Shown: piece by piece, positions 33,278 through 53,716 of the stretch
Layout: every line of letters begins with the position of its first letter
Numbering within the stretch: the first letter of the stretch is position 1
DNA from: Bacteroidales bacterium
Lineage (GTDB): Bacteria > Bacteroidota > Bacteroidia > Bacteroidales > P3
Direction of reading: 5' to 3'
DNA: 64,000 nt
Assembly: GCA_017522105.1 (NCBI GenBank)
Contig: JAFXAA010000013.1
Location: 161,804-225,803, forward strand
Position numbers and translations under genes: made by a program
Notes under the pieces: generated by a model
What the model saw: the letters and a program-made list of their open reading frames with translations, nothing else
Told to the model about the DNA's origin: nothing
Databases searched by the model: none

Positions 33278-34078
33278 ATGCAACAGATAATAGTCATCAC
33301 CGGCGCATCGTCGGGCTTCGGCAAAGCCGCCGCCGAACTACTGGCCGCCAAGGGAAATACCGTCTACGGCCTCTGCCGCCGCGAGATGCAGGACAGCAAC
33401 ATCCGCTACCGCCAGTGCGACGTGCGCAACCGCGAGCAGATTGCCGCCGTGGTGGCCGATATAGTCAAAGAGCAGGGTAGGGTGGACGTCCTCATCAACA
33501 ACGCCGGCATGGGCATCGGCGGCGCACTGGAGCTGGCCACGGAGGAGGAGATAGACATGCAGATGGGCACCAACTTCATGGGCTGCGTGAACATGTGCCA
33601 GGCCGTATTGCCCTACATGCGCAAGGCACGGCGCGGCAAGATCATCAACCTCAGCTCCATCGGAGGCGTGATGGGATTGCCCTATCAAGGCTTCTACTCG
33701 GCCTCCAAATTCGCCATCGAAGGCTTCACCGAGGCCCTTGCCGCCGAAGTCACAGGCTTCGGCATACGCGTCTGCATGGTTGAGCCTGGAGACTTCGCCA
33801 CAGGCTTCACCGGCAGCCGCAAGAACAGCCAGGCAACCATGAACGACCCGGACTACGGCCCCATCTTCAAACGTAGCCTCGCCATCATTGAGAAAGAGGA
33901 GAATAGCGGCTTACAGCCTGAGGTGCTGGCTCGCCGCATAGTGAAACTTGTGGAGAAAAAGAAACCGCCACTGCGCAACGTCGTCGCCAACCTGGAGCAG
34001 TGGCTCTCGGTGGTCATCAAGCGCGTGCTGACGGGCAACCAAATGGTGGGAATACTGAGGGATTACTACAAGAGCTAA
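33278..34078 (+). CDS. Short-chain dehydrogenase/reductase (SDR)
   Basis: 266 residues of a classical SDR: cofactor motif VITGASSGFGKAAAELLAAK (TGxxxGxG type), DVRNREQ, NNAGMGIGG, catalytic Ser in NLSSIGGVMGLPYQGFYSAS with Tyr and Lys of YSASKFAIEGF. NAD(P)H-dependent oxidoreductase of unknown substrate. The C-terminal region with ARRIVKLVEKKKPPLR is common in SDRs acting on lipid or steroid-like substrates. In sphingolipid-making Bacteroidetes an SDR reduces 3-ketosphinganine, and the serine palmitoyltransferase is 6 kb away, but nothing here proves that role. Confidence 0.9.
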   Translation: MQQIIVITGASSGFGKAAAELLAAKGNTVYGLCRREMQDSNIRYRQCDVRNREQIAAVVADIVKEQGRVDVLINNAGMGIGGALELATEEEIDMQMGTNFMGCVNMCQAVLPYMRKARRGKIINLSSIGGVMGLPYQGFYSASKFAIEGFTEALAAEVTGFGIRVCMVEPGDFATGFTGSRKNSQATMNDPDYGPIFKRSLAIIEKEENSGLQPEVLARRIVKLVEKKKPPLRNVVANLEQWLSVVIKRVLTGNQMVGILRDYYKS

Positions 34079-34788
34079 TCGCCACTATTGTCAGTAGTGT
34101 CTGGCACGACTATTTCCCATGGCACTGTAGGTGCTGGAACAATGGCATCAAGTATGCGGCCGTAGAGTAGCAACGAATTCTTCATTGGGCTGTTGAACCC
34201 ACTGACTGTGAGACCTATGTTATATCGCAAGAACCTGTTGTTGCTTTCCGGGTCAGACACAGCAGCACTGGCGTCACGCGCAGGCGTAGACCACATACCG
34301 TCACGGTAGTTGAAGTCCCACAAACGCGGGTCGTGCGGACTGGTAATTAGTAGCCCCATCTTTTGCAGCATATTCTTCTGGCCGACAACAAGCACGGGCC
34401 GCAGATAACGAAACCATCCGGCGTCATAGTACGGCACATCGCTAAGTTCATCTTCGCTCGGTGGCATCACTACGCTGCGTACCCATGTATCGCGCGACAA
34501 CGTTAAGCCTTTATAATGCATCAACGTGTCGCCAAACTGCAGCACAAGAACAGAATAGGTGCCAGCGGCAATCGGCGGCAGAGTATAGTTGCCGGCATAG
34601 TCGGTCACCGCCATCGCCCGACTCCGCCCGTCCTGCATCAGGTGCACAAAGCAAAAGGGTAGGGGGTTGCCGTCAGCACCATTGATTACAGTACCCGTCA
34701 CCTTAAGCCTTTCGCCACCATCCTGTGCTTTGGCTACAGGAAGCAACGCCAGGGCTATCAACAACAGTATATGTCTCTTGGTCAGCAT
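34075..34788 (-). CDS. Secreted protein with carboxypeptidase-regulatory-like domain
   Basis: 237 residues. Signal peptide (ILLLIALALLPVAKA), then a CarboxypepD_reg-like domain of about 75 residues (LKVTGTVINGADGNPLPFCF ... NYTLPPIAAGTYSVLV), the domain also found at the front of TonB-dependent receptors. The last 120 residues have no recognisable family. It starts 3 nt after the stop of ECF sigma factor 1 and on the same strand, so it is co-expressed with it and may be its periplasmic target or sensor partner. The end overlaps the SDR stop by 4 bp on the opposite strand. Confidence 0.8.
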   Translation of the reverse strand: MLTKRHILLLIALALLPVAKAQDGGERLKVTGTVINGADGNPLPFCFVHLMQDGRSRAMAVTDYAGNYTLPPIAAGTYSVLVLQFGDTLMHYKGLTLSRDTWVRSVVMPPSEDELSDVPYYDAGWFRYLRPVLVVGQKNMLQKMGLLITSPHDPRLWDFNYRDGMWSTPARDASAAVSDPESNNRFLRYNIGLTVSGFNSPMKNSLLLYGRILDAIVPAPTVPWEIVVPDTTDNSGD

Positions 34789-34791
34789 AGT

Positions 34792-35775
34792 CTACAGCGA
34801 CAACATCACTGCCGGACGGCGCCCGACAAGTATGCGATAATCCATGTTGCAGCGAGGGAAAAGGTCGATCACACAGAAGCCGTGGCACACCTGCGACGAC
34901 ACAAGCACGCCGCTCTTTTGGTACACGCTCACCGTCTCGCCGTAGACACCCGTGACAATAAGCCTGTTGCCGCTGACCCATATTGTGGGTTCCGGCGGCA
35001 AAGAGGTCAACACCGACGGCATGGTGTCGCTTTCTTCGTTGATGACAGAGAGGACGGTCAGCGCGTCAGCATCGGGCATGCGATCCTCTGCCAACGACCG
35101 CACAGCAGCAGGCTCGACAACAGGCGCCACGTCCGCATCCTCCACGTTTGGCGGCGTGACATTCCCCCTTGCGGGCTCTTCATGCGGCGGCACGTATTCT
35201 TCCTCGCGATGCTCTGCGCCACCGAATACAATGCTGCGCCACTGCGGCACAACGGCAACGGCCAACCCCGAAGCCAGAAGCACCAACAAGAGCAGCAACA
35301 CAAACCGCCGGGCCTTGGCTATGGCGCGGTGCAGCCTCTGATAGACGGCATCGCGGCTGAGGCTCATAATGGTGGCAATCTCGTCGGCATGGTAGCCATC
35401 GAGGTACAGACGCACAAGCCGTTGGTCGTCGGCCGTGAGGAAGGCCATCAGATGCTCTATTTCCTCCTTCTGCTGCGACGAATTGTCGTCGGCGAGGGTT
35501 TCCTCCATCAAGGCAGTCAAAGGCAGCAGGGAGGGCTTCTGGCGACGGCGCAGCAGGTCGAGCGACGAACGGCACTGCCAATACACCCACGAACGCTCCT
35601 CGCCGGGAGAGGCATCGGCACGCAACGCGTCCATGCGCAGCCACAACACTATAGAGACTTCCTGCACCAGGTCGTTGCAGCGTGCCCGGTCGCCCCTGGC
35701 GGCAAACCAGCACATGCGCCACACCATGGCATGATGGCGTTGCAGCAGCTCTGTGTATGCACTCTGACGGTTCAT
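34792..35775 (-). CDS. Membrane-tethered ECF sigma factor 1 (sigma domains + TM helix + extracytoplasmic domain)
   Basis: 327 residues. Region 2 (about 5-75) has the ECF motif DLVQEV; region 4 (about 105-155) holds a helix-turn-helix GYHADEIATIMSLSRDAVYQ. Directly after it comes one membrane helix (158-177, VLLLLLVLLASGLAVAVV). The remaining 150 residues are predicted periplasmic: an acidic, Pro-rich stretch and a C-terminal strand-rich domain (GNRLIVTGVYGETVSVYQKS) like that of the paralogue. The sigma part would thus sit at the inner face of the membrane. ATG 35775 is supported by the paralogue, whose N-terminus aligns residue for residue (M-x-RQ-x-x-Y). The secreted protein gene follows by 3 nt. 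Confidence 0.83.
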   Translation of the reverse strand: MNRQSAYTELLQRHHAMVWRMCWFAARGDRARCNDLVQEVSIVLWLRMDALRADASPGEERSWVYWQCRSSLDLLRRRQKPSLLPLTALMEETLADDNSSQQKEEIEHLMAFLTADDQRLVRLYLDGYHADEIATIMSLSRDAVYQRLHRAIAKARRFVLLLLLVLLASGLAVAVVPQWRSIVFGGAEHREEEYVPPHEEPARGNVTPPNVEDADVAPVVEPAAVRSLAEDRMPDADALTVLSVINEESDTMPSVLTSLPPEPTIWVSGNRLIVTGVYGETVSVYQKSGVLVSSQVCHGFCVIDLFPRCNMDYRILVGRRPAVMLSL

Positions 35776-35780
35776 AAACA

Positions 35781-35813
35781 TATAATACACCATCGGTGGC
35801 CAAAATCTGACAC
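35781..35813 (-). promoter_or_regulatory. Shared bipartite motif, copy A (upstream of sigma factor 1)
   Basis: On the minus strand: GTGTCAGATTTTG, 10 nt, GTGTATTATA. Same blocks and same 10-nt gap as copies B and C. If read as an ECF promoter, the -10 hexamer TATTAT ends 6 bp before ATG 35775, so the transcript would be leaderless. Confidence 0.7.
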
Positions 35814-35818
35814 CCGGG

Positions 35819-35828
35819 TGCAAAAATA
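35819..35828 (-). promoter_or_regulatory. Possible housekeeping -7 box of sigma factor 1
   Basis: TATTTTTGCA on the minus strand, just upstream of motif copy A. It could provide basal transcription besides autoregulated transcription. Confidence 0.45.
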
Positions 35829-35855
35829 CTGGTTTTTTTGCTTTTTACGCCTTTT

Positions 35856-35888
35856 ATGTCAGATTTTGCCCACCAAATGGGTATTATA
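35856..35888 (+). promoter_or_regulatory. Shared bipartite motif, copy C (upstream of the lipoprotein pair)
   Basis: ATGTCAGATTTTG, 10 nt, GGGTATTATA on the plus strand. It mirrors copy A across the divergent intergenic region. The start would be near 35894, giving a leader of about 26 nt before ATG 35920. Confidence 0.7.
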
Positions 35889-35919
35889 TTGGTAGAACAC
35901 CAACACAAAAAACAACATT

Positions 35920-36336
35920 ATGAAAAAGACACATTTATTTATCACGGTGGCCATAGCCACCATGGCGTTGGCTTTTGCGGCCTGCGAAAAAGAAAAAGTG
36001 ACCGAACCGGCCACAATACCTCCGGCATACAACAATCCCCTCGTCGGTACCAAATGGCTCTATCACCACGACACCAACATAATGGGCATCCGTGTGGTAC
36101 AGGAGCTGCGCCTTGCCTTCCATTCCGACACCACAGGAGAAAGCTACATCGGCAGCGAGGACTCCTACTCGCCATGGTGGGACACCACCTACTCATTCCG
36201 TTACGTCTTTCATTCTGAGCTCAACGGCATTGAGTTATACGAGGATGAGTCGCCTTATCCAGCCTATTTCCGATACCACCCCGAAACCCAGACAATAACA
36301 CAGCGAGAAACAGTGTTTCATTTGGATGAACAATAA
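35920..36336 (+). CDS. Small lipoprotein 1 of the sigma-factor locus
   Basis: 138 residues. Signal peptide MKKTHLFITVAIATMALAFA with lipobox AFAAC, then a soluble beta-rich domain (VGTKWLYHHDTNIMGIRVVQ, LRLAFHSDTTGESY, ELNGIELYEDE). The length, alternating strands and repeated Thr/Trp pattern suggest a lipocalin-like barrel. A relative is encoded 18 bp downstream. It is preceded by motif copy C, so it is probably under control of the membrane-bound sigma factors, maybe as an envelope-stress effector. Confidence 0.82.
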   Translation: MKKTHLFITVAIATMALAFAACEKEKVTEPATIPPAYNNPLVGTKWLYHHDTNIMGIRVVQELRLAFHSDTTGESYIGSEDSYSPWWDTTYSFRYVFHSELNGIELYEDESPYPAYFRYHPETQTITQRETVFHLDEQ

Positions 36337-36354
36337 AAGAATGGAGATAATAAC

Positions 36355-36786
36355 ATGAAAAACACACGTTTATTTACAATGGCAGCCCTGATGGGCGTCC
36401 TGGCCTTCTCTGCCTGCAAAAAAGAGGAGAACACCCCCACTCCGGAAGTCCAACCCAATAACCCACTGAAAGGAACCGTATGGGAAGCTGAGCGCTATGA
36501 AACTCCCGGCGGGGAGTTTCGCTCGTACACCGACCGCCTGCTGTTCAAGACCGGCACAACAGGCGAAATAGTATCCATCTTCAGCACCGTGTACTACAAC
36601 GGTGACAACCCCGGCACCACATGGGACACCACCGTCGCCATGACCTACGAGCTCGACACAGTGAACCATGAACTATACGTTCACTCCGACTACGCTGGAA
36701 ATCCCGGCCGCCTGACATACAACCTCGACGAAGAGACCATGACAGTGGTGGGGGACGAACAGAAGGTCTATATACGCATAATGTAG
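36355..36786 (+). CDS. Small lipoprotein 2 of the sigma-factor locus
   Basis: 143 residues, paralogue of the preceding lipoprotein. Signal peptide MKNTRLFTMAALMGVLAFSAC with lipobox AFSAC, a short Pro/Thr linker, then a beta-rich domain (LKGTVWEAERYE, LLFKTGTTGEIVSIFST, YELDTVNHELYVHSDY). No promoter of its own is visible, so it is transcribed with lipoprotein 1. It ends 4 bp from the end of sigma factor 2 on the other strand. Confidence 0.82.
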   Translation: MKNTRLFTMAALMGVLAFSACKKEENTPTPEVQPNNPLKGTVWEAERYETPGGEFRSYTDRLLFKTGTTGEIVSIFSTVYYNGDNPGTTWDTTVAMTYELDTVNHELYVHSDYAGNPGRLTYNLDEETMTVVGDEQKVYIRIM

Positions 36787-36790
36787 ACTG

Positions 36791-38269
36791 TCAGAAGGAG
36801 AGATCCAGGTCGCGATAGTTTATAAAGATGTTGTTGCTGGCGGGGATGTGTTTTGCCCCAAGCGATACACGCCTGAACGGCCTGGATCCCACCTTCACCC
36901 AAAAGGATCCTGTTGCCGATTTGCTGAAGGTGCGGTCGCCGATGTGATCTGTGTTTATCGGCAACAAACAACGACCCTTGCACTGTGCGGTAGCCACAAG
37001 GCGGCCCTGGGCATCGTAGACTTCTACGGGCTCGTCGTCTGCACCCTCGACCACAATGGTATTGCCCTTGACGATTATTGTCACCTCGGGCAGCGGGACG
37101 TGTTGCGGTTCACAAGGGTCTACAACGTACTCAAAAACATCCCACTGCGGTGCATTGCGATAGGCTGACGAGGTGCCGCAGGGCACCAGCAGACGCACCG
37201 TGTCGGCCATACCGAAAAAGCACCATTCGCCAGCCACAACTGGGGGCTCCGTGGCAAGAACCTCCAATGTGTCGATACCGGCGCACAGGGAGAAAGCATC
37301 TCTGCCCACGCTGGCCAGCGAGGCTGGCATCCTCACGCTGCGGATAGACGAGAGCGAGAAGAACGCACTGTCGGCCAGCGCCGTGACGGCATAGCTATGC
37401 CCGTCACGCTCCACCGTTTCCGGTACAATAACGCGTGCTCCGGCAGCGATACAAGACACCGCCACACTGCGCCTGTCATCCGAGAGGAAGCAGGCCAGCG
37501 TGTCGCCTGCTGCACCAAAGTAAAGAAAATCGTATTTCTGCCGCGGCTGCTGTGTTGGCACCTCGGCAACGGGAGCCGGTTCCGCCTCAGTCGGTGCCGC
37601 CTGCGGAGCGTGTACGGCCTGAACGGTGTCGGCGGAAGGCTCCGGAACCGACTTTGGCTCGTCGGTGGGCGTTCTTTTCTGCGCAGGTTCCTTTTTCTGA
37701 TTATGGCGCACTTTCTCCACAACCGTCTTGCGCCACTGCGGCACCACGGCAATGGCCAGCGTGGTGGTGAACACCAGCAGAAGCAACACCCCCAACAGGC
37801 GTCGCAGCTTCACTGCAATGCGGTGAATGCGCTGGTAGACGGCGTCGTTGCTCAGCCCCATGATGGAAGCAATCTCGTTCGCTCTGAAACCTTCCATCCG
37901 CATCCGCATGATGCGCTGTTCGTCAAGGCTGAGCGACGCCATCATGTCATCTATGTCTTCCCTCTGCGCCTGTCTGTCTTCGGCAGCTATGCTCTCCTCG
38001 TGCATCGGCGTGAGCGGCAGCATCTCCACGCGTCGTTTGCGCGTCTGGTGGTCCAGCGCACTGCGCGTCACCCAGCGCACCCACGCGCGTTCTTCGGCGG
38101 GCGTGACGCCGGGGCGCAGCTCTTCGAGGTGCATCCACAAAGCCACCGACACCTCCTGCACCAAGTCGCGACACTGCTCCCAATCGCCGTGCGCCTTCAG
38201 CCAGCACATGCGCCACACCATGGCTCTGTGGCGGTTCAGCAATGCAATGTATGTTCTTTGCCGTTCCAT
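36791..38269 (-). CDS. Membrane-tethered ECF sigma factor 2 with a BspA-like leucine-rich-repeat ectodomain
   Basis: 492 residues. Region 2 (about 5-75, DLVQEV) and region 4 (about 105-155, GFRANEIASIMGLSNDAVYQ) match sigma factor 1. One membrane helix follows (about 157-176, LGVLLLLVFTTTLAIAVV), then a Pro/Glu/Lys-rich linker (190-245), a BspA-type LRR_5 region (about 250-390, ADSAFFSLSSIRSVRMPASL and GRDAFSLCAGIDTLEVLATE, ending with a VPCGTSSAYRNAP cap) and a C-terminal domain with VEVYDAQGRLVATAQ resembling type IX secretion tails but not at the exact protein end. The ectodomain may sense a surface ligand. Start ATG 38269 aligns with sigma factor 1; another ATG at 38273 is in a different frame. 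Confidence 0.83.
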   Translation of the reverse strand: MERQRTYIALLNRHRAMVWRMCWLKAHGDWEQCRDLVQEVSVALWMHLEELRPGVTPAEERAWVRWVTRSALDHQTRKRRVEMLPLTPMHEESIAAEDRQAQREDIDDMMASLSLDEQRIMRMRMEGFRANEIASIMGLSNDAVYQRIHRIAVKLRRLLGVLLLLVFTTTLAIAVVPQWRKTVVEKVRHNQKKEPAQKRTPTDEPKSVPEPSADTVQAVHAPQAAPTEAEPAPVAEVPTQQPRQKYDFLYFGAAGDTLACFLSDDRRSVAVSCIAAGARVIVPETVERDGHSYAVTALADSAFFSLSSIRSVRMPASLASVGRDAFSLCAGIDTLEVLATEPPVVAGEWCFFGMADTVRLLVPCGTSSAYRNAPQWDVFEYVVDPCEPQHVPLPEVTIIVKGNTIVVEGADDEPVEVYDAQGRLVATAQCKGRCLLPINTDHIGDRTFSKSATGSFWVKVGSRPFRRVSLGAKHIPASNNIFINYRDLDLSF

Positions 38270-38276
38270 CCATAAA

Positions 38277-38309
38277 ACAAATACCCTTCTTTTGCCCGAA
38301 ATCTGACAT
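38277..38309 (-). promoter_or_regulatory. Shared bipartite motif, copy B (upstream of sigma factor 2)
   Basis: On the minus strand: ATGTCAGATTTCG, 10 nt, GGGTATTTGT. The left block is the same as in copies A and C except one base; the right block keeps GGGTATT. The predicted start is within a base or two of the ATG. Confidence 0.65.
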
Positions 38310-45682: not shown

Positions 45683-48600
45683 TTACTTCACAACCAGCTT
45701 GCGGACTGCGGTGGCCTGCTCGCCGACGATGCGGACGAAGTAGGTGCCCTTGGCCAGCGTGCTGACGTCGAAGGTGGCGGTGCCGTCAGCGGTGCGCTGC
45801 GTCATCACAGTGCGGCCGTTGAGGTCTATCACAGTGGCTTCCTTCATGCCCGTGGCGCTCACCGTGAAGGTGCTCGTGGCGGGGTTCGGGAAGAGGCTCA
45901 CGTTGCTCACCTCGGCCTCGTCGATGCCCACGCCGTCATAGCGGAAGGTGCCCACGAGGGTGATGTCGGCGGTGACAGTGAAGGTGTAGGGGTTGTCGTG
46001 GCTCACGGTGTCGCCCGTGGCGTCAACCCAGCCGGTGAAGACGTGGTTGTTTGCCGGGGTGGCCGTGGCGGTCACGCTGGTGCCGGCCTCCACGCTGCCG
46101 CTGGGCGTGCAGCTGGCGGTGCCCATGGTGGCATCGGCGCTGCTGACGCTGACGGTGTACTGCGGTACCGGCACGTTCTGGTTGAGGCTCACTGTGATGT
46201 CGTCAATCCACCACCAGTAGTTGGTGTTGTTGTTCACCTGCTCGATGGCGATGCGTGCGCCGGCGGGAGCACCAGCGAAGGTGGCGCTGTCTAAGGTCAT
46301 GTTGGTGTAGTTGCCAGAGGTGCACTCAAAGCGTGCAGTCTGCACAAATGTTGTGCTGTCTGTCGGGTCGGTGATGTAACCAACACGGATTGCACCGGGG
46401 CTGTTGCTGGTGCCGCTGTAGTCATTGCTGTTCTCAGCGCGCAGGTATAGGGTCATCTTCATGTTAGCAATGTCGGTCTCGAAGGGAGGCAGGATGGCCA
46501 CCAGCGGGGTTGGGGCATAGCCGCTGAAGCGCAAGGTATACGAACCTGTCACAGGATGCAAAGCGGTCACGTAGCAGTATCCATTCGAGGTGTAGGTTGT
46601 CTCACCATGCGGGTGGATGAACGACCAGCAGGATAATGCCGCAGCGGTGTCGCGAACGTTGCTGCCGTAGGTCTCAAAGCTTTCGAACCAGGGCAGGCTG
46701 CTGTATGTAATGTCGCCGCACAGGGTGCGGAAGGTCGTGCTGCGGGTGTTGGTCAGCGTGCCGTCGGGGCAGATGGCTGCCACGGTGACAGTGTAAGAGC
46801 TGGAGGCACTCAGACCGGTGATAGTGTAGGTGTTGGTGGTGATGTCCACGCTGTCGCTATCACCCCACCAGAGGCGGTAGTTGTTTATTTCGGCGGGGTC
46901 GTTGACGGTGACAACGGCCGAGTTGAGGGTGACACTGCTCACCGACACGCTGCCCGGGCGCGGGCAGACGCTGATAGTCGAGAGGGTGATGTCGTCAACG
47001 TAGATTGAGTAGTTGGTGGTCGTGTTGACGCAGTAGGCGCGGAGTGCCACGAAGTGGCCGATGCCGGTGTAGCCGTTGAGATCCACATCAACCTCTTCCC
47101 ATGTGCTGGTGGCCGACGGTGTGAAGGCCTGGATGGGGGTGAAGGTGTTTGCGTTGTTCGGGTCGGTCATCACACCCACCTCTATCTGTGCGTAGCTGTT
47201 GCTGCGGTACATCCAGAAGCGCAGGTTGAGGTTGGCCACGGTGTCGTAGCCGGGCAGCACGAGGTAGTTGGCACGGTTTACGCCGTAGGGGTAGAAGTAC
47301 ATACTGTTGCCAGTGGTGCCGTGGTAATAGCTGCTGGAGGGGTAGGGGTAGTAAGAGGTACCGCTGAGGCTGAACTTGTTCCAGCAGTTGTCGATGGTAC
47401 CAGTGGTGCCGGTGGTATAGCTGTCGAAGGTCTCCACCAAAGGCAGGTCGGCTCTGGTGAGCAGGGCGCAGTTGGCGGTAGTGAACGACATGGTACGCTC
47501 GCGGGTGGCCTCGTTGGTGCAGTTGCTGCTGACGCCGACGGTGTAGGTGGTGGCGTTGGTGAGGCCGGTGAAGGTGTAGAAGGTGTCGGTGACGGTGACG
47601 GGGCTGCCGATGGCGGCGCCGGTGGCGTCGTAGAGGGTCACGTTGTAGGAACCCGCCAAGGTGGCGTCGACCCAGGAGATGGTGGCCTCGTTGTTAGTGA
47701 TGTTGACGGCCTCCACCACAGAGGGACGGCGGCAGTCGGCCAGGACGTCCACGGTGATGTCGTCGATATAGGGGTAGATATAGTTGGCAGAGGTGCCGTA
47801 GACCACGAAGGTGATGCGGCCGCCGTTGCCGGTGTAAGCGCTGAGGTCGGCATCAAACTCCTCCCAGGCGTTCTGCGTGGCGGAGATGGTAGCCAGACGA
47901 GTGAAGGTGCTCGTGTCGGCGGTGGCGCTGTCGCTCACACCAACGGCTACGCGCACCGTGCTGGCATAGCTGCTGCTGTTGGGGTTGAGGAAGAAGGACA
48001 CGCCGAGGGTGTTGAGGTCAGCCTCGAACTCCGGCAGGTAGAACACCGAGTAGTACTGCGAGCTGCTGCCCTGGTAGCAGTAGTTGTACATGTACTTGGT
48101 GCCGCTGTGTGCGCTGCCGCTGCGGACGTAGGGGTAGCTGTCGGTGTATGTGTAGGAACCGCTCGTGTAGAAGTGACTCCAGCAGGGGTGGAAGCCGGCG
48201 TTGCCGGTGCCCCAGCCCTCGAAGTTTTCGCTCCACGGCAGGGTGGCTATCGGGGCGCACTCCGTAAAGAATGTCGTGTTGACGAAGGCTGTGGGGTTGC
48301 CGTCCGAGCAGACAGCGGCCACATTGATGTCGTAGTAGGTGCCGGGCTGCAGGTCGGTGAGCGAGATAATCGTGTCGCTGATGTTAGTCACAGTGTCGCT
48401 GTTGGTGCCATCGGTAAGGATGTACATGTAGCTGCCAACGATGGTGCTGTCGCTGATGGTGACATCGGCCGTGGTGCTGGTGATGTTGCTCACCGTCACG
48501 CCCTGCGGACGAGCGCAGATGGGAGCTATGTGCACGTCGATGTCGTCAATCCACCACCAGTAGTTGTTATTGCCGTTGACCTGCTGGATGGCTATGCGGG

Positions 48601-51600
48601 CTCCTTCGGGAGCACCGGCAAAGGTCACATTCTCCTGCGTATAGGTGGTGTGGTCGGCTCCGTTGAGGAGGGCGGTCAGCACGAAGGTGCTGCTGTCGGT
48701 GACGTCGGTGACGTAGCCGATGCGGAGCACACCGGCTGTGGTGCCGTTCTCTGCCAGAGCCCAGAATGACAACTCAAGGGTGCTGATGTCGTCCGCGAAG
48801 GGGGGCAGGATGGCCATCAGCGGGGTGGTGGCGTAGCCGTTGAAGCGCAGCGAGTTGCTGCCGCCGTGCACGCGAGCGGCATCGTTTATCACGTAAAACT
48901 TGCTGCTGCTGCCTTTGACGGTGTTCCAGCAGTTGAGGTCGGCCTGGATGTCGGTAGTGGCGGTGTAGCCCTCGAAGCCCTCGGTCCAGGGCAACACGGT
49001 GATAAAGGCGCAGTCGGTGCGGAAGCTGGCGACGGCGGCATCAGTCATGCTCCCGTCGGCACAGATGGTACGCACGCTGACAGTGTAGTCCGTTCCGGGG
49101 GTCAGGGTGTCGAAGGTGTAGGTGTTATCGAACAGCTCCACGCTGTCGGTGGTGCCTATGTAGAGCATGTAGTGGCCGGTGTTGTTGGCGTCGGCGATAG
49201 TGATGGTGGCGTTAGCGGAGTCAATGTCGGTGACTGTTACCGATGACGGAGCCACGCAGCTGGGCAGCTCGTCAACCACCATGTTGTCAATATATACTGT
49301 GCCACTTGTGTGGCGCAGGGCTATGAGACCCTCGGTCTGGCCGGCGAACGTGGCCTCGTAGTGCTGCCATACGCTGTAGGTTGTCGGTGCGAAGGAGGTT
49401 ACGGGCACAAATGTCGTGGCATCGTTGGGGTTGGTGATAATGCCAACCTCAACAGTGTTGCCACTGCCACTGACATACAGGTCAAAGGAGAGCATCAGCT
49501 GGTCGGGCGTGTCCTGGAACGGGGGCAGCACCATGACGGGCTTGATGGTGTTGGAGGTATAGCTGTACACGCAGTTGCCGCCGTTGGGGCTGTAGGTGCT
49601 GCTGTTGTTGTAGTAGGGGTAGTTGGAGCCGTAGCGGTCGAGGATGGTCCAGCAATCGGGAGCCATGCGGTTGCTTTCGTCGCTGCTGGTGTTGCCGGTG
49701 TAGCTGTTGAAGTTCTCCGTCCAGGGCAGGCTGTCGTGCTCTATGCCCTCGCAGAGGGTCTTGAAGGTCATCTCAAAGGGATAGGTGGTGTTGCCGTCGT
49801 CGCATACGCTGACCATGCTGACGCTGTACAGCGTGTTGGGCGTCAGGTTGTTGAGCGAGAGGATCGTGTCTGTCACATCCTCGCTGACGGTGTCGTTGCC
49901 GCTGACGATGGTGACCGTATAGTTGTCCACATGGTTGCTGTCGAGGATTATGATGTCGGCCTCGGTGGCGCCAATGTTCTCCGCACGGATACCTTGTGCA
50001 CGGGCGCAGGAGGGGGCGAGGGAGACGTAGATGTCATCGATGAACCAGTACCAGTTGCTGCTTGCTGTGTTGTGGCGGAACGCTATGCGCGAGCCTTCGG
50101 GGGCGTCGGCCGGGAAGGTGACTATCATCTGGCGGTAGGCTCCGTTGAACTCGCTGTAGCTGTAGGTCTCCAGGGCCACAAAGCTGCTGCGGTCTGTGGC
50201 ATTGGTGACGTAGCCCACAGAGAGGCTTCCGGGGCTCGAGCCCGTGCCCTCGGGGCGTGTCCAGAACGCCAGCTGCAGGTTGCCTATCTCTTCCTCGAAT
50301 CCAGGCATAACCACGACAGCCTGCGAGGTGTTCGAGTTGGGGTAGAACTTCAGGCTGTAGCCCTGGGTGCCGAGCTCGTAGTTGTGGCTGTAGCTGCTGG
50401 ACTGGTTGATGAATTGCATGTAGTCGCCGCTGACGGAGGGCAGGAACTCCCAGCAGGGTATCATGCCGCCGGGCATGCTGCCGCTGGAGGTGTAGTAGCT
50501 GCTGTAGCTGTCGAAGTCCTCTGTCCAGGGCAGCTGCTGTATCGGGGCGCAGGCAGTGCGGTAGGGGGGGCTCACGCGCGGCGCCGTGGTGCTGCCGTCG
50601 CTGCACAGCGTATAGACCGTGAAGGTATACACCGTGTAGGGCTGCAGGCCGCTGATGGTGTACACGGTGTCGGTCGCCGTCTCGGTCACGGTGTCTGTGG
50701 CGCTGGAGGCTACGATGACATAGTTGCCCTCCGTGCTCGGGTCGTCGATGTGTATGTCGGCGGTGTAGGCCGTCACGTTGTTCACCGTGAAGCCCTCGAT
50801 GCGCTCGCAGGTGGGAGCCATGTGCACGTTGATGTCGTCGATGTAGGTTGTGCGGGTGCCGGCCGAGGCATTGAGGTTGCGGAAGGCTATGAAGCCCGTG
50901 GTGTGGCCGGGGAAGTGTATCACAAAGTCTTCCCAGGTGCCTGTAGCGCTCGGGGCGCAGGTGTCAACGGGCACAAAGGTCGAGGTGTCGTTGGGGTTGC
51001 TCATCACGCCCACTTCCACGCCGTAGCCCGAAGTGGCCACGCGCACCGAGAAGCTCAGCTCCAGGTTCTCCAGGTCTTCCTCGAAGGCAGGCATGGATAT
51101 GTGCGTCATCTTCGAACTGGAGGTGTAGATGTACAAGCTGTTGGAGCCGCTGTTGTGCTGGCTGGTGCTGACGTAGGGGTAGTAGGTGCCGTAGCGGTCG
51201 ATGACCGTCCAGCAGTCGGGGTTGAAGACGGTGGTGGCGCTGCTGGAAGTGCCGCCGGTGTAGCTGTCGAAGTTCTCCATGAAGGGCAGGTCCTCGGTGG
51301 CGTAGGGCAGGCAGGGTGTGTGGAATCTGGTGACCACGGGCGAGGTCTCGTTGCCGTCGTCGCACAGGGCCACCACTGTCACCGTGTACTGCGCGTTGGG
51401 CTGCAGGTCTTCAAGGGTGTATATGGTGTCGCTGGCCGTCACGCTGAAGGTGCTGTCGCCGCTGACGTCTATGCGGTAGTTGTTCACCTGGTTGCTGTCG
51501 TGGATGACAACGTCGACGGTCGTGCTGGTGAGGTTGGCGACGCTGACGCCCTGGGCGCGTTCGCAGTTCGGGGCCAGCATGACGGTGATGTCGTCAATGT

Positions 51601-53716
51601 AGAAGCTGACCGAGCTGCCGGCGGCGCGGAAGGCTATGTAGCGGCCCGTGTCCGTGTAGTTCGTCAGGCGGCACTCCTTCAGCTCCCAGGTGTTCGTCGT
51701 GCTCACGCCGAAGCTCTCGATGGGGGTGAAGGTGGTGGTGTCGTTGGGGTCGCCCATGACGCCCACCGTCATGCGTGTTGTTGCCGCCGTGCTGCCGCTG
51801 CGCATCTGGAAGACCACCATCAGGTCGTCCACCTCGTCAAACTCAGGCGTCACAGCCCACTGTGTGCCCGACGATGTGGGATAGAAGTACAGGCTGTTTG
51901 GCGTGTTGGGGCCGGCGGTGCTGCTGGGGTAGGGATAGGTGGTGCTGGTGGTGAAGCTGTATTTTGTCCAGCAGGGGTTGATGGACTCGGTGGAGCCGGT
52001 GGCATAGCTCTCGAAGGTCTCCACGTAGGGAAGGCCGTCGGTGTGCGTGATGACGCCGCAGGCCGTGAAGGTGCTGGTGCTGATGGAGAAGCTCGTGTCG
52101 TCGCCGCAGACGGCTGCCACGACGAAGGTGTAGCCCGTGCCGGCGCTCAGGTTGTCGAAGGTATAGGTGGTGTCGCTGACATCCTGCCACTCGCCGTTGT
52201 TGGCGCGCACAATGTAGGCGCTGGCATCGCCGCTCCAGTTGAGGGTGACGCTGGTCTCGGTGGTCAGTGCGGTGTCGACGGTCAGGGCTGTGGGGGCCGA
52301 GCAGTTGATGACGCTGACGCTGATGTTGTCAATGGCTGCTGGGGGCTGTTCGCCCATGCTGCCGTCGTTGTGCCAGTAGAAGACCAGGTAGTAGGTGCCC
52401 GCCGTGGCGCCTATGAGGGGTATCTGCACGGTCTGCCATGTGCTGCTGCCGTTGAGGAGTCCGCTGACATTCTGCCAGCCCGTGGTGCTCACCGACGAGC
52501 CGTCGAAGTTGGCGCTGCCGGGGGCTATGTAGGCGTAGAGGTAGTCGTAGGAGCTCTCGCCGACACCCTTCCAGTCGAAGCTCAGGGCGTAGTCGCCGTC
52601 GTCGGCCAGGGAGAAGGCGCGGTAGGCATATACATCGCACGAGTAGCTGATGTTGTAGCTGTTGGAGGTGCCGTTGTTGTCGCTGATGTAGAGCGAGCGG
52701 CTGCCACCGTTGTTGGTGGCCGAGCCGATGAACCACTTGTTGGTGGCCGAGCCGTTGAACACAGCCCAGCCAGTGTCCTCGTCGGCCTCGAAGCCGCAGG
52801 TGTAGGGCAGCTCGCTGACGGGGTCGACGCGCAGGGTGCGTGCCTGGATGGTGCGCATGGAGGCGAGGTCGCCGCTGCCGCAGTCGGCCTGCACGCCGAT
52901 GGTGTAGGTGGTGTTGGCCGTGAGGCCGCTGAAGGTGTAGGAGGTGTCGGTGGTGGTGCCGTCGAGGGTGGTGTCGTTGCCGTTGATGAGGTAGACGTTG
53001 TAGCTGGCGCCGCTGTTGTTGGTGTCAAGCCAGCTGACGGTCAGCTCCGTTGTGCTGACGGTGCCCGTGACGGCGAGGCTCTTCACAGCATAGCAGCTGA
53101 GATCCGCTTGGGTAATCTCAAGCTGGATGTTGCCATAGTAGTCACGTGTGGTTTTACTGCCGCTGTAAGACCCGATATTGTAAGGATCGGGGTTTGTGCC
53201 GTCGCTATAGAAGCTTATGCACGCAGAGGTTGCGCTGGTATAGGTGAAGTTGCGTGTAGAATAGCCGGCAGTGGATTCGTGCATGGCAACCATCAGGTTG
53301 CTGCTCCCGTCATAGTAGAACGGGTTGTCCAGCTCGATTGTAACCCAGCCGGTGTAGCTGGCCGGGATTGTCCACGAACCGCTGTACACCAAGTCGGATG
53401 TGGTGACAGCCTCATAGTCCGTGTTCGACGAAAACGAGGTCCTGCTGACATTCTTCATGTACAGAGCAATGGTGTTGGTCTGTGCGGAGGAATAGCTCTG
53501 TCCCAAATGGAAACTGATGGAGGTGATGGTTCCTGCCATGTTTATGGCGGCGGCGGGGTAAACCATCTCCGTAAAGGAGTAACCATAGAGAGAGTTGAAC
53601 GGCGTGTAGTAGTTGGTAGACGTACCTGTGCCGATTGTCACTGTCTCTTGTCCACTGGTCGCCCATGGCACTGCCAGACATGCCATTAGCAACACACTTC
53701 GTAGAAACTTTTTCAT
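45683..53716 (-). CDS. Giant type IX secreted protein with repeated FnIII and anchor-J (MAM-like) modules
   Basis: 2,677 residues. Signal peptide (MKKFLRSVLLMACLAVPWAT), an N-terminal beta domain, then about nine rounds of an FnIII module (e.g. LTSTTVDVVIHDSNQVNNYR) followed by a jelly-roll anchor-J module opening with LPW(T/S)E(N/D)F(D/E)SY. Near the end come an InlB-type repeat (TVSVSSADATMGTASCTPSG) and a type A sorting tail (VSLFPNPATSTFTVSA ... KGTYFVRIVGE). It is thus exported across the outer membrane and attached to the surface, probably as an adhesin or glycan binder. It is transcribed alone, with a promoter at 53889-53920 and a long leader. Large open frames on the plus strand in this interval are shadows of the repeats. 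Confidence 0.9.
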   Translation of the reverse strand: MKKFLRSVLLMACLAVPWATSGQETVTIGTGTSTNYYTPFNSLYGYSFTEMVYPAAAINMAGTITSISFHLGQSYSSAQTNTIALYMKNVSRTSFSSNTDYEAVTTSDLVYSGSWTIPASYTGWVTIELDNPFYYDGSSNLMVAMHESTAGYSTRNFTYTSATSACISFYSDGTNPDPYNIGSYSGSKTTRDYYGNIQLEITQADLSCYAVKSLAVTGTVSTTELTVSWLDTNNSGASYNVYLINGNDTTLDGTTTDTSYTFSGLTANTTYTIGVQADCGSGDLASMRTIQARTLRVDPVSELPYTCGFEADEDTGWAVFNGSATNKWFIGSATNNGGSRSLYISDNNGTSNSYNISYSCDVYAYRAFSLADDGDYALSFDWKGVGESSYDYLYAYIAPGSANFDGSSVSTTGWQNVSGLLNGSSTWQTVQIPLIGATAGTYYLVFYWHNDGSMGEQPPAAIDNISVSVINCSAPTALTVDTALTTETSVTLNWSGDASAYIVRANNGEWQDVSDTTYTFDNLSAGTGYTFVVAAVCGDDTSFSISTSTFTACGVITHTDGLPYVETFESYATGSTESINPCWTKYSFTTSTTYPYPSSTAGPNTPNSLYFYPTSSGTQWAVTPEFDEVDDLMVVFQMRSGSTAATTRMTVGVMGDPNDTTTFTPIESFGVSTTNTWELKECRLTNYTDTGRYIAFRAAGSSVSFYIDDITVMLAPNCERAQGVSVANLTSTTVDVVIHDSNQVNNYRIDVSGDSTFSVTASDTIYTLEDLQPNAQYTVTVVALCDDGNETSPVVTRFHTPCLPYATEDLPFMENFDSYTGGTSSSATTVFNPDCWTVIDRYGTYYPYVSTSQHNSGSNSLYIYTSSSKMTHISMPAFEEDLENLELSFSVRVATSGYGVEVGVMSNPNDTSTFVPVDTCAPSATGTWEDFVIHFPGHTTGFIAFRNLNASAGTRTTYIDDINVHMAPTCERIEGFTVNNVTAYTADIHIDDPSTEGNYVIVASSATDTVTETATDTVYTISGLQPYTVYTFTVYTLCSDGSTTAPRVSPPYRTACAPIQQLPWTEDFDSYSSYYTSSGSMPGGMIPCWEFLPSVSGDYMQFINQSSSYSHNYELGTQGYSLKFYPNSNTSQAVVVMPGFEEEIGNLQLAFWTRPEGTGSSPGSLSVGYVTNATDRSSFVALETYSYSEFNGAYRQMIVTFPADAPEGSRIAFRHNTASSNWYWFIDDIYVSLAPSCARAQGIRAENIGATEADIIILDSNHVDNYTVTIVSGNDTVSEDVTDTILSLNNLTPNTLYSVSMVSVCDDGNTTYPFEMTFKTLCEGIEHDSLPWTENFNSYTGNTSSDESNRMAPDCWTILDRYGSNYPYYNNSSTYSPNGGNCVYSYTSNTIKPVMVLPPFQDTPDQLMLSFDLYVSGSGNTVEVGIITNPNDATTFVPVTSFAPTTYSVWQHYEATFAGQTEGLIALRHTSGTVYIDNMVVDELPSCVAPSSVTVTDIDSANATITIADANNTGHYMLYIGTTDSVELFDNTYTFDTLTPGTDYTVSVRTICADGSMTDAAVASFRTDCAFITVLPWTEGFEGYTATTDIQADLNCWNTVKGSSSKFYVINDAARVHGGSNSLRFNGYATTPLMAILPPFADDISTLELSFWALAENGTTAGVLRIGYVTDVTDSSTFVLTALLNGADHTTYTQENVTFAGAPEGARIAIQQVNGNNNYWWWIDDIDVHIAPICARPQGVTVSNITSTTADVTISDSTIVGSYMYILTDGTNSDTVTNISDTIISLTDLQPGTYYDINVAAVCSDGNPTAFVNTTFFTECAPIATLPWSENFEGWGTGNAGFHPCWSHFYTSGSYTYTDSYPYVRSGSAHSGTKYMYNYCYQGSSSQYYSVFYLPEFEADLNTLGVSFFLNPNSSSYASTVRVAVGVSDSATADTSTFTRLATISATQNAWEEFDADLSAYTGNGGRITFVVYGTSANYIYPYIDDITVDVLADCRRPSVVEAVNITNNEATISWVDATLAGSYNVTLYDATGAAIGSPVTVTDTFYTFTGLTNATTYTVGVSSNCTNEATRERTMSFTTANCALLTRADLPLVETFDSYTTGTTGTIDNCWNKFSLSGTSYYPYPSSSYYHGTTGNSMYFYPYGVNRANYLVLPGYDTVANLNLRFWMYRSNSYAQIEVGVMTDPNNANTFTPIQAFTPSATSTWEEVDVDLNGYTGIGHFVALRAYCVNTTTNYSIYVDDITLSTISVCPRPGSVSVSSVTLNSAVVTVNDPAEINNYRLWWGDSDSVDITTNTYTITGLSASSSYTVTVAAICPDGTLTNTRSTTFRTLCGDITYSSLPWFESFETYGSNVRDTAAALSCWSFIHPHGETTYTSNGYCYVTALHPVTGSYTLRFSGYAPTPLVAILPPFETDIANMKMTLYLRAENSNDYSGTSNSPGAIRVGYITDPTDSTTFVQTARFECTSGNYTNMTLDSATFAGAPAGARIAIEQVNNNTNYWWWIDDITVSLNQNVPVPQYTVSVSSADATMGTASCTPSGSVEAGTSVTATATPANNHVFTGWVDATGDTVSHDNPYTFTVTADITLVGTFRYDGVGIDEAEVSNVSLFPNPATSTFTVSATGMKEATVIDLNGRTVMTQRTADGTATFDVSTLAKGTYFVRIVGEQATAVRKLVVK

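Follow-up and report, generated by a model that had tools for sequence, protein, structure and literature searches.

Single-chain membrane sigma factors are scarcely known, and in the portions of the literature available to us IutY of Pseudomonas putida (ECF243) is the one with a worked-out mechanism. As those sources describe it, IutY is a sigma/anti-sigma hybrid of the extracytoplasmic function (ECF) type in which sigma regions 2 and 4 are followed by one transmembrane (TM) helix and a periplasmic regulatory domain; this domain is FecR-like and responds to a TonB receptor with a signaling domain, activation and release involve cleavage by Prc and RseP, a version truncated at residue 168 (the sigma domain alone) is constitutive, and the protein is termed unique (PMC5411451, PMC9249621). 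Actinobacterial ECF48, ECF52, and ECF53 (e.g., SCO4117) are described as sigma factors whose C-terminus continues into TM helices and extracytoplasmic parts, the extension comprising a zinc-finger anti-sigma domain and one or two TM helices (PMC8999054). Here we analyze a 64,000-nucleotide stretch of DNA from a Bacteroidales bacterium (contig JAFXAA010000013.1, positions 161,804 to 225,803; hereafter the window) that encodes two ECF sigma factors, sigma 1 (34792..35775, minus strand, 327 residues) and sigma 2 (36791..38269, minus strand, 492 residues), each predicted to continue in the same chain into a single TM helix and a periplasmic ectodomain.

IutY is the closest known protein, having sigma factor, single TM helix, and periplasmic domain in one chain. 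However, set against IutY as those sources portray it, the ectodomain here comprises a tail domain, which in large members is DUF6383-like, and in some cases BspA-type leucine-rich repeats (LRRs) as well, Pfam scans of the window proteins and of the large fusions gave no match to FecR, and we are dealing with a family of up to several members per genome that has split relatives and a common promoter. Because the defining periplasmic domain was not found, we do not assign sigma 1 and sigma 2 to the FecI/FecR-type group of IutY. The C-terminal fusion to TM and extracytoplasmic parts is shared with ECF48, ECF52, and ECF53 as they are described, but here the TM helix directly follows sigma region 4, and no zinc-finger or anti-sigma domain was found in Pfam scans. 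SigP of Porphyromonas gingivalis, in the PorXY-SigP system with PorA, is an ECF sigma factor that has been connected with type IX secretion and is affected by a surface protein bearing a C-terminal domain; its activation is ascribed to a two-component system and no membrane fusion is mentioned (PMC7712824), whereas sigma 1 and sigma 2 are fused. The canonical pair of ECF sigma factor and membrane anti-sigma factor has the layout of the split members of our family, in which the sigma gene is overlapped or followed by that of a single-TM partner, whereas the fusions lack the cytoplasmic segment of the partner and carry TM helix and ectodomain on the sigma factor itself. Within the genome of the window, a third sigma factor, sigma3, has the layout of such a canonical pair; sigma 1 and sigma 2 do not.

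Judged from sequence, a tethered ECF family without a recognizable anti-sigma domain, and bearing tail and BspA-type ectodomains, would be new relative to IutY. No membrane-anchored sigma family in Bacteroidota was found in the literature searched, and only as far as this search goes would the fusion appear to be unpublished. That one Bacteroidales genus holds fused and split forms together, with a clear promoter and a predicted regulon, allows one to ask whether tethering alone can substitute for an anti-sigma domain, how an ECF/anti-sigma pair turns into one protein, and whether a regulator senses via a copy of its own product. An initial annotation of the window had recognized the two chains; the shared promoter, the regulon, the loss of an anti-sigma-like segment, and the likeness of ectodomains to regulated proteins go beyond it.

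Architecture and spread of the fused sigma factors

Both open reading frames (ORFs), to which the initial annotation had attributed ECF regions 2 and 4, a single TM helix, and an ectodomain, were recovered with these features. TIGR02937 (sigma70-ECF) scored above cut-off in residues 9-158 of sigma 2 (E 5.5e-17) and in residues 16-167 of P0001 (E 3.5e-15), the sigma 1 ORF beginning 10 residues ahead of the start we chose; this most likely start is the ATG at 35775, and the stop codon is at 34794-34792. In Pfam, r4_2 was above cut-off for both proteins and r2 for sigma 2. Sigma 1 consists of regions 2 and 4 (about residues 1-155), the TM helix (about 157-176), a conserved juxtamembrane motif (AVAVVPQWR), a linker (185-257), and a tail domain (about 263-327). 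AlphaFold models one unbroken helix (141-175) leading out of the helix-turn-helix (HTH) of region 4, followed by a low-confidence linker that is probably disordered and a beta tail domain block with a pLDDT of 79-89 (overall 71, pTM 0.30). The nearest solved relative is Mycobacterium tuberculosis SigL (6dv9), aligned at its residues 17-168 of 177; the alignment thus reaches to within nine residues of the SigL C-terminus, where the TM helix begins here. We rejected the possibility that the hydrophobic segment is a core sigma helix, as in split homologs it is missing from the sigma gene and present in a separate partner, and the modeled continuous helix 141-175 also speaks against it.

Sigma 2 has the same sigma-TM part and a longer ectodomain, made up of a long Pro-rich linker, a short BspA-like LRR stretch, and a tail domain with a C-terminal extension. 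The two proteins are 49% identical over the sigma part and membrane helix, in agreement with the alignment of the paralogs first reported. The size of about 150 residues originally given to the sigma 1 ectodomain stands, refined to the low-confidence linker and a tail domain resembling that of sigma 2, whereas the description of the sigma 2 ectodomain holds for linker and tail, its LRR part being short and scoring below the Pfam cut-off (LRR_5, 22.1 bits vs. 27.7).

When the sigma-TM alignment was searched against 118 genomes, 62 matched at E <= 1e-15 (matches that include non-fused sigma factors), all of them within the 71 of the same genus; none of the 47 genomes from elsewhere in the order matched at this threshold. 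A broader sample of 393 genomes from the order, in which at most five first-look candidates were scored per genome, gave matches in six: two of the same genus, the window's own among them, and four of another genus, which were weak and without the extension. The relatives that protein searches matched go under the titles uncultured Bacteroidales or Bacteroidetes, and many of them come from rumen samples. The fetched loci yielded 17 non-fused sigma factors and 45 fused sequences, 39 of which reach a stop codon (239-800 residues); L051/L086 and L078/L082 are duplicates, leaving 43 different genes. The TM window starts at residue 155-163 in all 45, its presence in every one being by construction, since only chains with a strongly hydrophobic window behind the sigma part entered the set. 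Mean pairwise identity in the fusions is 0.71 in the juxtamembrane stretch, 0.57 in the sigma regions, and 0.24 in the linker, and within the AxAVVPQWR stretch P177 and W179 are invariant in 38 of 38 rows.

Of the 73 strongest search rows (the first of the sigma-TM search table, down to E 6.6e-38, with weaker rows dropped), 44 were fused by the rule of an open frame of at least 230 residues and a match reaching model position 180, and they are located in 30 of 70 same-genus genomes; among the dropped rows is a gene of G062 that looks fused but is truncated at a contig end, this genome being counted as without fusion. The placing of sensor and sigma factor in one chain, for which the initial annotation proposed a search of Bacteroidales genomes, therefore recurs among relatives. 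It had also been envisaged there that homologs with separate genes could mark the chain as a local fusion or artifact. Such homologs exist, but the fusion is neither local nor an artifact of assembly, because it is widespread, with 43 different fused genes in relatives.

The split forms bear on how the fusions arose. Within 400 nucleotides (nt) of the sigma end, 13 of the 17 loci with a non-fused sigma gene contain a frame carrying M[TSF][DE]G[FL]x(1-2)W, a motif derived from such split partners. The partners that we read are single-TM proteins whose genes often overlap that of the sigma factor and which consist of roughly 35-50 cytoplasmic residues, a TM helix, and an ectodomain; in several the linker, LRR, and tail domains are the same as in the fusions, and the TM helix of the L066 partner, LLLLTSTALAMSVVPQWR, is near the fused form. 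The motif occurs in 17 different partner sequences and in none of the 45 fusions, which, together with the TM start at 155-163, leads us to view the fusion as sigma factor plus partner TM helix and ectodomain, minus the anti-sigma-like segment. The layout of the split genes suggests that this segment would bind the sigma factor. An additional anti-sigma or zinc-finger domain within the fused chain was sought and rejected on the Pfam scans and the missing partner motif, and the neighborhood of sigma 1 and sigma 2 in the window holds no partner gene with an anti-sigma-like cytoplasmic segment. The genome of the window (2.28 Mb, 38 contigs) also encodes a split pair, sigma3 and its anti-sigma-like partner, on contig C25. 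Trees, all of which excluded L072, group the fusions with two to three changes of state. A single fused clade was not rejected in either of two trees that also excluded long-branch rows (p-AU 0.294 and 0.107), and in the latter tree well-supported branches demand at least two changes; these results fit one to a few fusion events.

A shared predicted promoter and its putative regulon

A predicted bipartite promoter, TGTCAGATTT-N14-GTATTA, precedes sigma 1, sigma 2, and a pair of lipoprotein genes between them. The predicted sites are exact for sigma 1 (35783..35812, minus strand, 7 nt ahead of the start codon) and for the lipoprotein pair (35857..35886, plus strand, 33 nt ahead of the start codon); that of sigma 2 (38279..38308, minus strand, start codon 9 nt on) has one mismatch to GTATTA and is exact to GTATT. 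In the window TGTCAGATTT occurs exactly three times, once per transcription unit and each time followed by N14-GTATT, and with one mismatch allowed there are 5 matches vs. 2.6 expected. Elsewhere in the same genome, which has these three exact sites with GTATT, a site with one mismatch lies ahead of sigma3, and two sites with two mismatches (C4 and C37) have no convincing target by eye. Of the 32 fused genes that have a site, 22 have the start codon 7-11 nt past it, a spacing (7-9 nt for sigma 1 and sigma 2) suggesting that the mRNAs of these sigma genes may be nearly leaderless.

The promoter is concentrated in the genus and near the sigma genes. In the 70 same-genus genomes we counted 96 sites (GTATTA form, at most one mismatch) vs. 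3 for the reversed pattern, and in 46 other genomes 6 vs. 4. Sites are present in 28 of the 30 same-genus genomes with a fusion vs. 11 of the 40 without (Fisher p 2e-8, uncorrected for shared ancestry), and, when all 96 same-genus sites were compared with the 73 strongest search rows, a site lay within 200 nt upstream of 32 of 44 fused genes vs. 9 of 29 other sigma matches. A site scoring at least 12 of 16 was found within 200 nt of 60 of 69 distinct sigma genes; the same score was reached by 52 of 62 upstream regions, by shuffled regions in 16 of 1240 cases, and by reversed regions in 0 of 62.

The -10 element also differs between clades. All 12 sigma3-clade promoters have C immediately before GTATT, which none of the 48 others has, and position 4 is A in 10 of 12 vs. 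2 of 48. This covariation is uncorrected for shared ancestry, and clade membership was assigned from the tree for loci before L187 and from the best pairwise alignment for L187 and later ones. L179, a fused member that groups with sigma3 (99/97 support), has a promoter of the sigma3 type. This change of the -10 element with the sigma clade argues that the sigma factors of the family themselves recognize the bipartite promoter. Five sigma3 loci carry a variant, TGTAAGATTC-N14-GTATTA, downstream of the pair and beside a CarboxypepD-like gene, and the sigma3 locus of the window's genome carries it with one mismatch (15 of 16); the sigma3 loci have the look of a conventional, separate ECF circuit that uses a promoter variant of its own. 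At L187-L192 and L003, the sigma3 pair adjoins a CarboxypepD-type gene and a second sigma3-type promoter follows the pair.

From 33 exact non-sigma sites we picked 20 by hand, mostly away from sigma genes and not at random. All 20 precede genes of exported types (8 BspA LRR_5 proteins, 5 CarbopepD_reg_2 proteins, 6 small lipoproteins, and 1 TonB-dependent receptor with a CarboxypepD_reg domain), signal peptides and lipoboxes being judged by eye. The ORF of one of the six lipoprotein targets, L142 (G005:C29), is broken by a stop codon after about 33 residues. At L184 (G036:C24), the neighbors of a fused sigma gene are a motif-driven LRR protein, which bears a canonical PNP-type secretion tail, and a second, conventional-looking ECF sigma factor and partner (both by eye).

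Ectodomains and the control of a tethered sigma factor

Some ectodomains resemble the proteins that the promoter precedes. At E <= 1e-4, 21 of 47 ectodomain queries (17 of 43 without gene repeats) match one of 18 regulon proteins, the proteins compared being from different loci rather than same-genome pairs; for instance, the sigma 2 ectodomain is 31% identical to L139 over 176 residues (E 6e-17). In six different large-type genes (L048, L051/L086, L061, L078/L082, L085, and the second gene of L076, several of them cut by locus ends), the ectodomain is 54-87% identical over 164-523 residues to the motif-driven secreted LRR proteins L130 or L139. In five of the six genes the match takes in the secreted precursor from residue 1 or 2 onward, and in L085 from residue 27; a signal-peptide-like stretch is present inside the printed chains of L048, L061, L076, L078 (residues about 280-303), L085, and L086. 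The topology of the large fusions is puzzling, as one TM helix already precedes this stretch. It is possible that an internal start yields a free secreted LRR protein; an internal promoter of the present type ahead of the internal Met was considered and rejected, the best score being 8-9 of 16 in the five checked.

LRR_5 is far above the Pfam cut-off in L078 and L085, and the tail domain of large members is DUF6383-like (L078, E 1.5e-4, 22.3 bits, just under cut-off). The tail profile matched that of 16 type IX secretion tails from the same genome with 93% probability (E 3.3e-7; 40 column shuffles gave at most 4%), and TIGR04183 was not among the matches listed at E <= 0.1 for seven proteins (for L078, the best 25 of 39 families). 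The genome of the window encodes the SprA translocon, with 38 tail matches reaching E <= 0.01.

We favor, with moderate confidence, a model in which the membrane tether inhibits these single-chain ECF systems, an event at the ectodomain triggers cleavage, and the freed sigma factor drives its own gene and those of exported proteins. The helix continuing from the region 4 recognition helix would fix the sigma factor to the inner membrane, with the ectodomain in the periplasm, and so hold it away from RNA polymerase. A periplasmic event, probably connected with how similar surface proteins are trafficked or what state they are in, would permit a cut by a site-1 protease, after which RseP would cleave the helix near AxAVVPQWR and the released sigma factor would transcribe its own gene along with those of the lipoproteins and of other surface proteins. 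An HTH helix stuck in the membrane should make promoter and polymerase hard to reach, so that the simplest switch would be release, and we infer from the analogy with IutY that it would occur by intramembrane proteolysis. An RseP-type protease is above cut-off in the window's genome; the family also matches 14 of 14 control genomes, above cut-off in 9. That some ectodomains are like surface proteins suggests that surface-protein traffic may be what is sensed. More tentatively, the ectodomain of some members might be a captured copy of a regulated product, the sensor copying what the sigma factor controls, a proposal about which we remain doubtful. Chaperones, export route, and partners would in that case be common to the regulator and its products, and cleavage or sparing of the regulator in step with surface-protein traffic would give direct feedback without a separate anti-sigma factor.

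It is feasible, if unlikely, that the sigma factor is active while still anchored, as ToxR- or CadC-like one-component regulators are, with promoter DNA and RNA polymerase coming to the membrane; this and proteolytic release are the two options named in the initial annotation, and we agree that they are the ones to weigh. The chain is conserved and the fusions show no extra cytoplasmic inhibitory domain, leaving nothing obvious that needs removal. ToxR-like proteins possess a linker, however, whereas here the recognition helix is predicted to be continuous with the membrane helix and to lack a flexible linker, an arrangement that should crowd the polymerase against the membrane, and IutY requires cleavage. 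Loss of the anti-sigma-like segment and the wide variation of the ectodomains, from linker and tail up to complete LRR arrays, would also be expected had the fusion drifted into a constitutively leaky sigma factor whose ectodomain no longer senses anything; we think this very improbable, given that the TM end and AxAVVPQWR, with its invariant proline and tryptophan, are among the most conserved parts.

Several observations weigh against the release model. Region 2 of sigma 1 is under the Pfam cut-off, and the sigma 1 ectodomain has no match among the 18 regulon proteins. The window's genome has few clear sites, one each for sigma 1, sigma 2, and the lipoprotein pair, with another two at the sigma3 locus; nine of the 69 sigma genes have no site scoring 12 of 16 within 200 nt, although two of these (L053 and L083) sit after a lipoprotein gene that has one; and the Fisher tests carry no correction for ancestry. 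The motif also occurs in the 11 genomes without a fusion by rule (e.g., G012, with five exact sites), as would be expected if split forms read it too. This last point, and the separate anti-sigma-like partner of sigma3, would equally suit fused proteins that are regulon products or decoys, with another ECF sigma factor, such as a split member, reading the motif and the tethered one modulating or competing. We consider that arrangement quite unlikely, since the -10 variant tracks the sigma clade, even to the sigma3-type promoter of the fused L179, and the sigma regions of the fusions are well conserved.

Neighboring genes

The direct neighbors of the sigma genes encode the two lipoproteins, a CarboxypepD_reg protein, a short-chain dehydrogenase (SDR), and a 371-residue protein without assignment, with no TonB receptor of the kind that accompanies IutY among them. 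The lipoproteins that the initial annotation placed between the sigma genes are located at 35920..36336 (lipoprotein 1, plus strand, 138 residues, no Pfam family) and 36355..36786 (lipoprotein 2, plus strand, 143 residues, no Pfam family above cut-off), each with a lipobox cysteine by eye; the pair is divergent from sigma 1 and convergent with sigma 2. Identification of lipoprotein 1 as the PG1828 lipoprotein was rejected, as the match covers residues 1-29 only. The secreted protein said to follow sigma 1 is the CarboxypepD_reg protein (34075..34788, minus strand; PF13620, E 5.4e-8), whose gene begins 3 nt past the sigma 1 stop codon and likely shares its transcript. Position 38309, originally given as the end of the locus, proved to be the start of another overlapping ORF rather than that of sigma 2. 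The SDR gene (33278..34078, plus strand, by Pfam scan) is not thought to be part of the mechanism; an SDR-like gene also adjoins the sigma loci of the relatives L075, L091, and L183 (by eye). Further along the window (45683-53716, minus strand), an ORF of 2677 residues, a giant secreted or surface protein, has at its end a type IX secretion tail that scores strongly (TIGR04183, E 2.1e-15).

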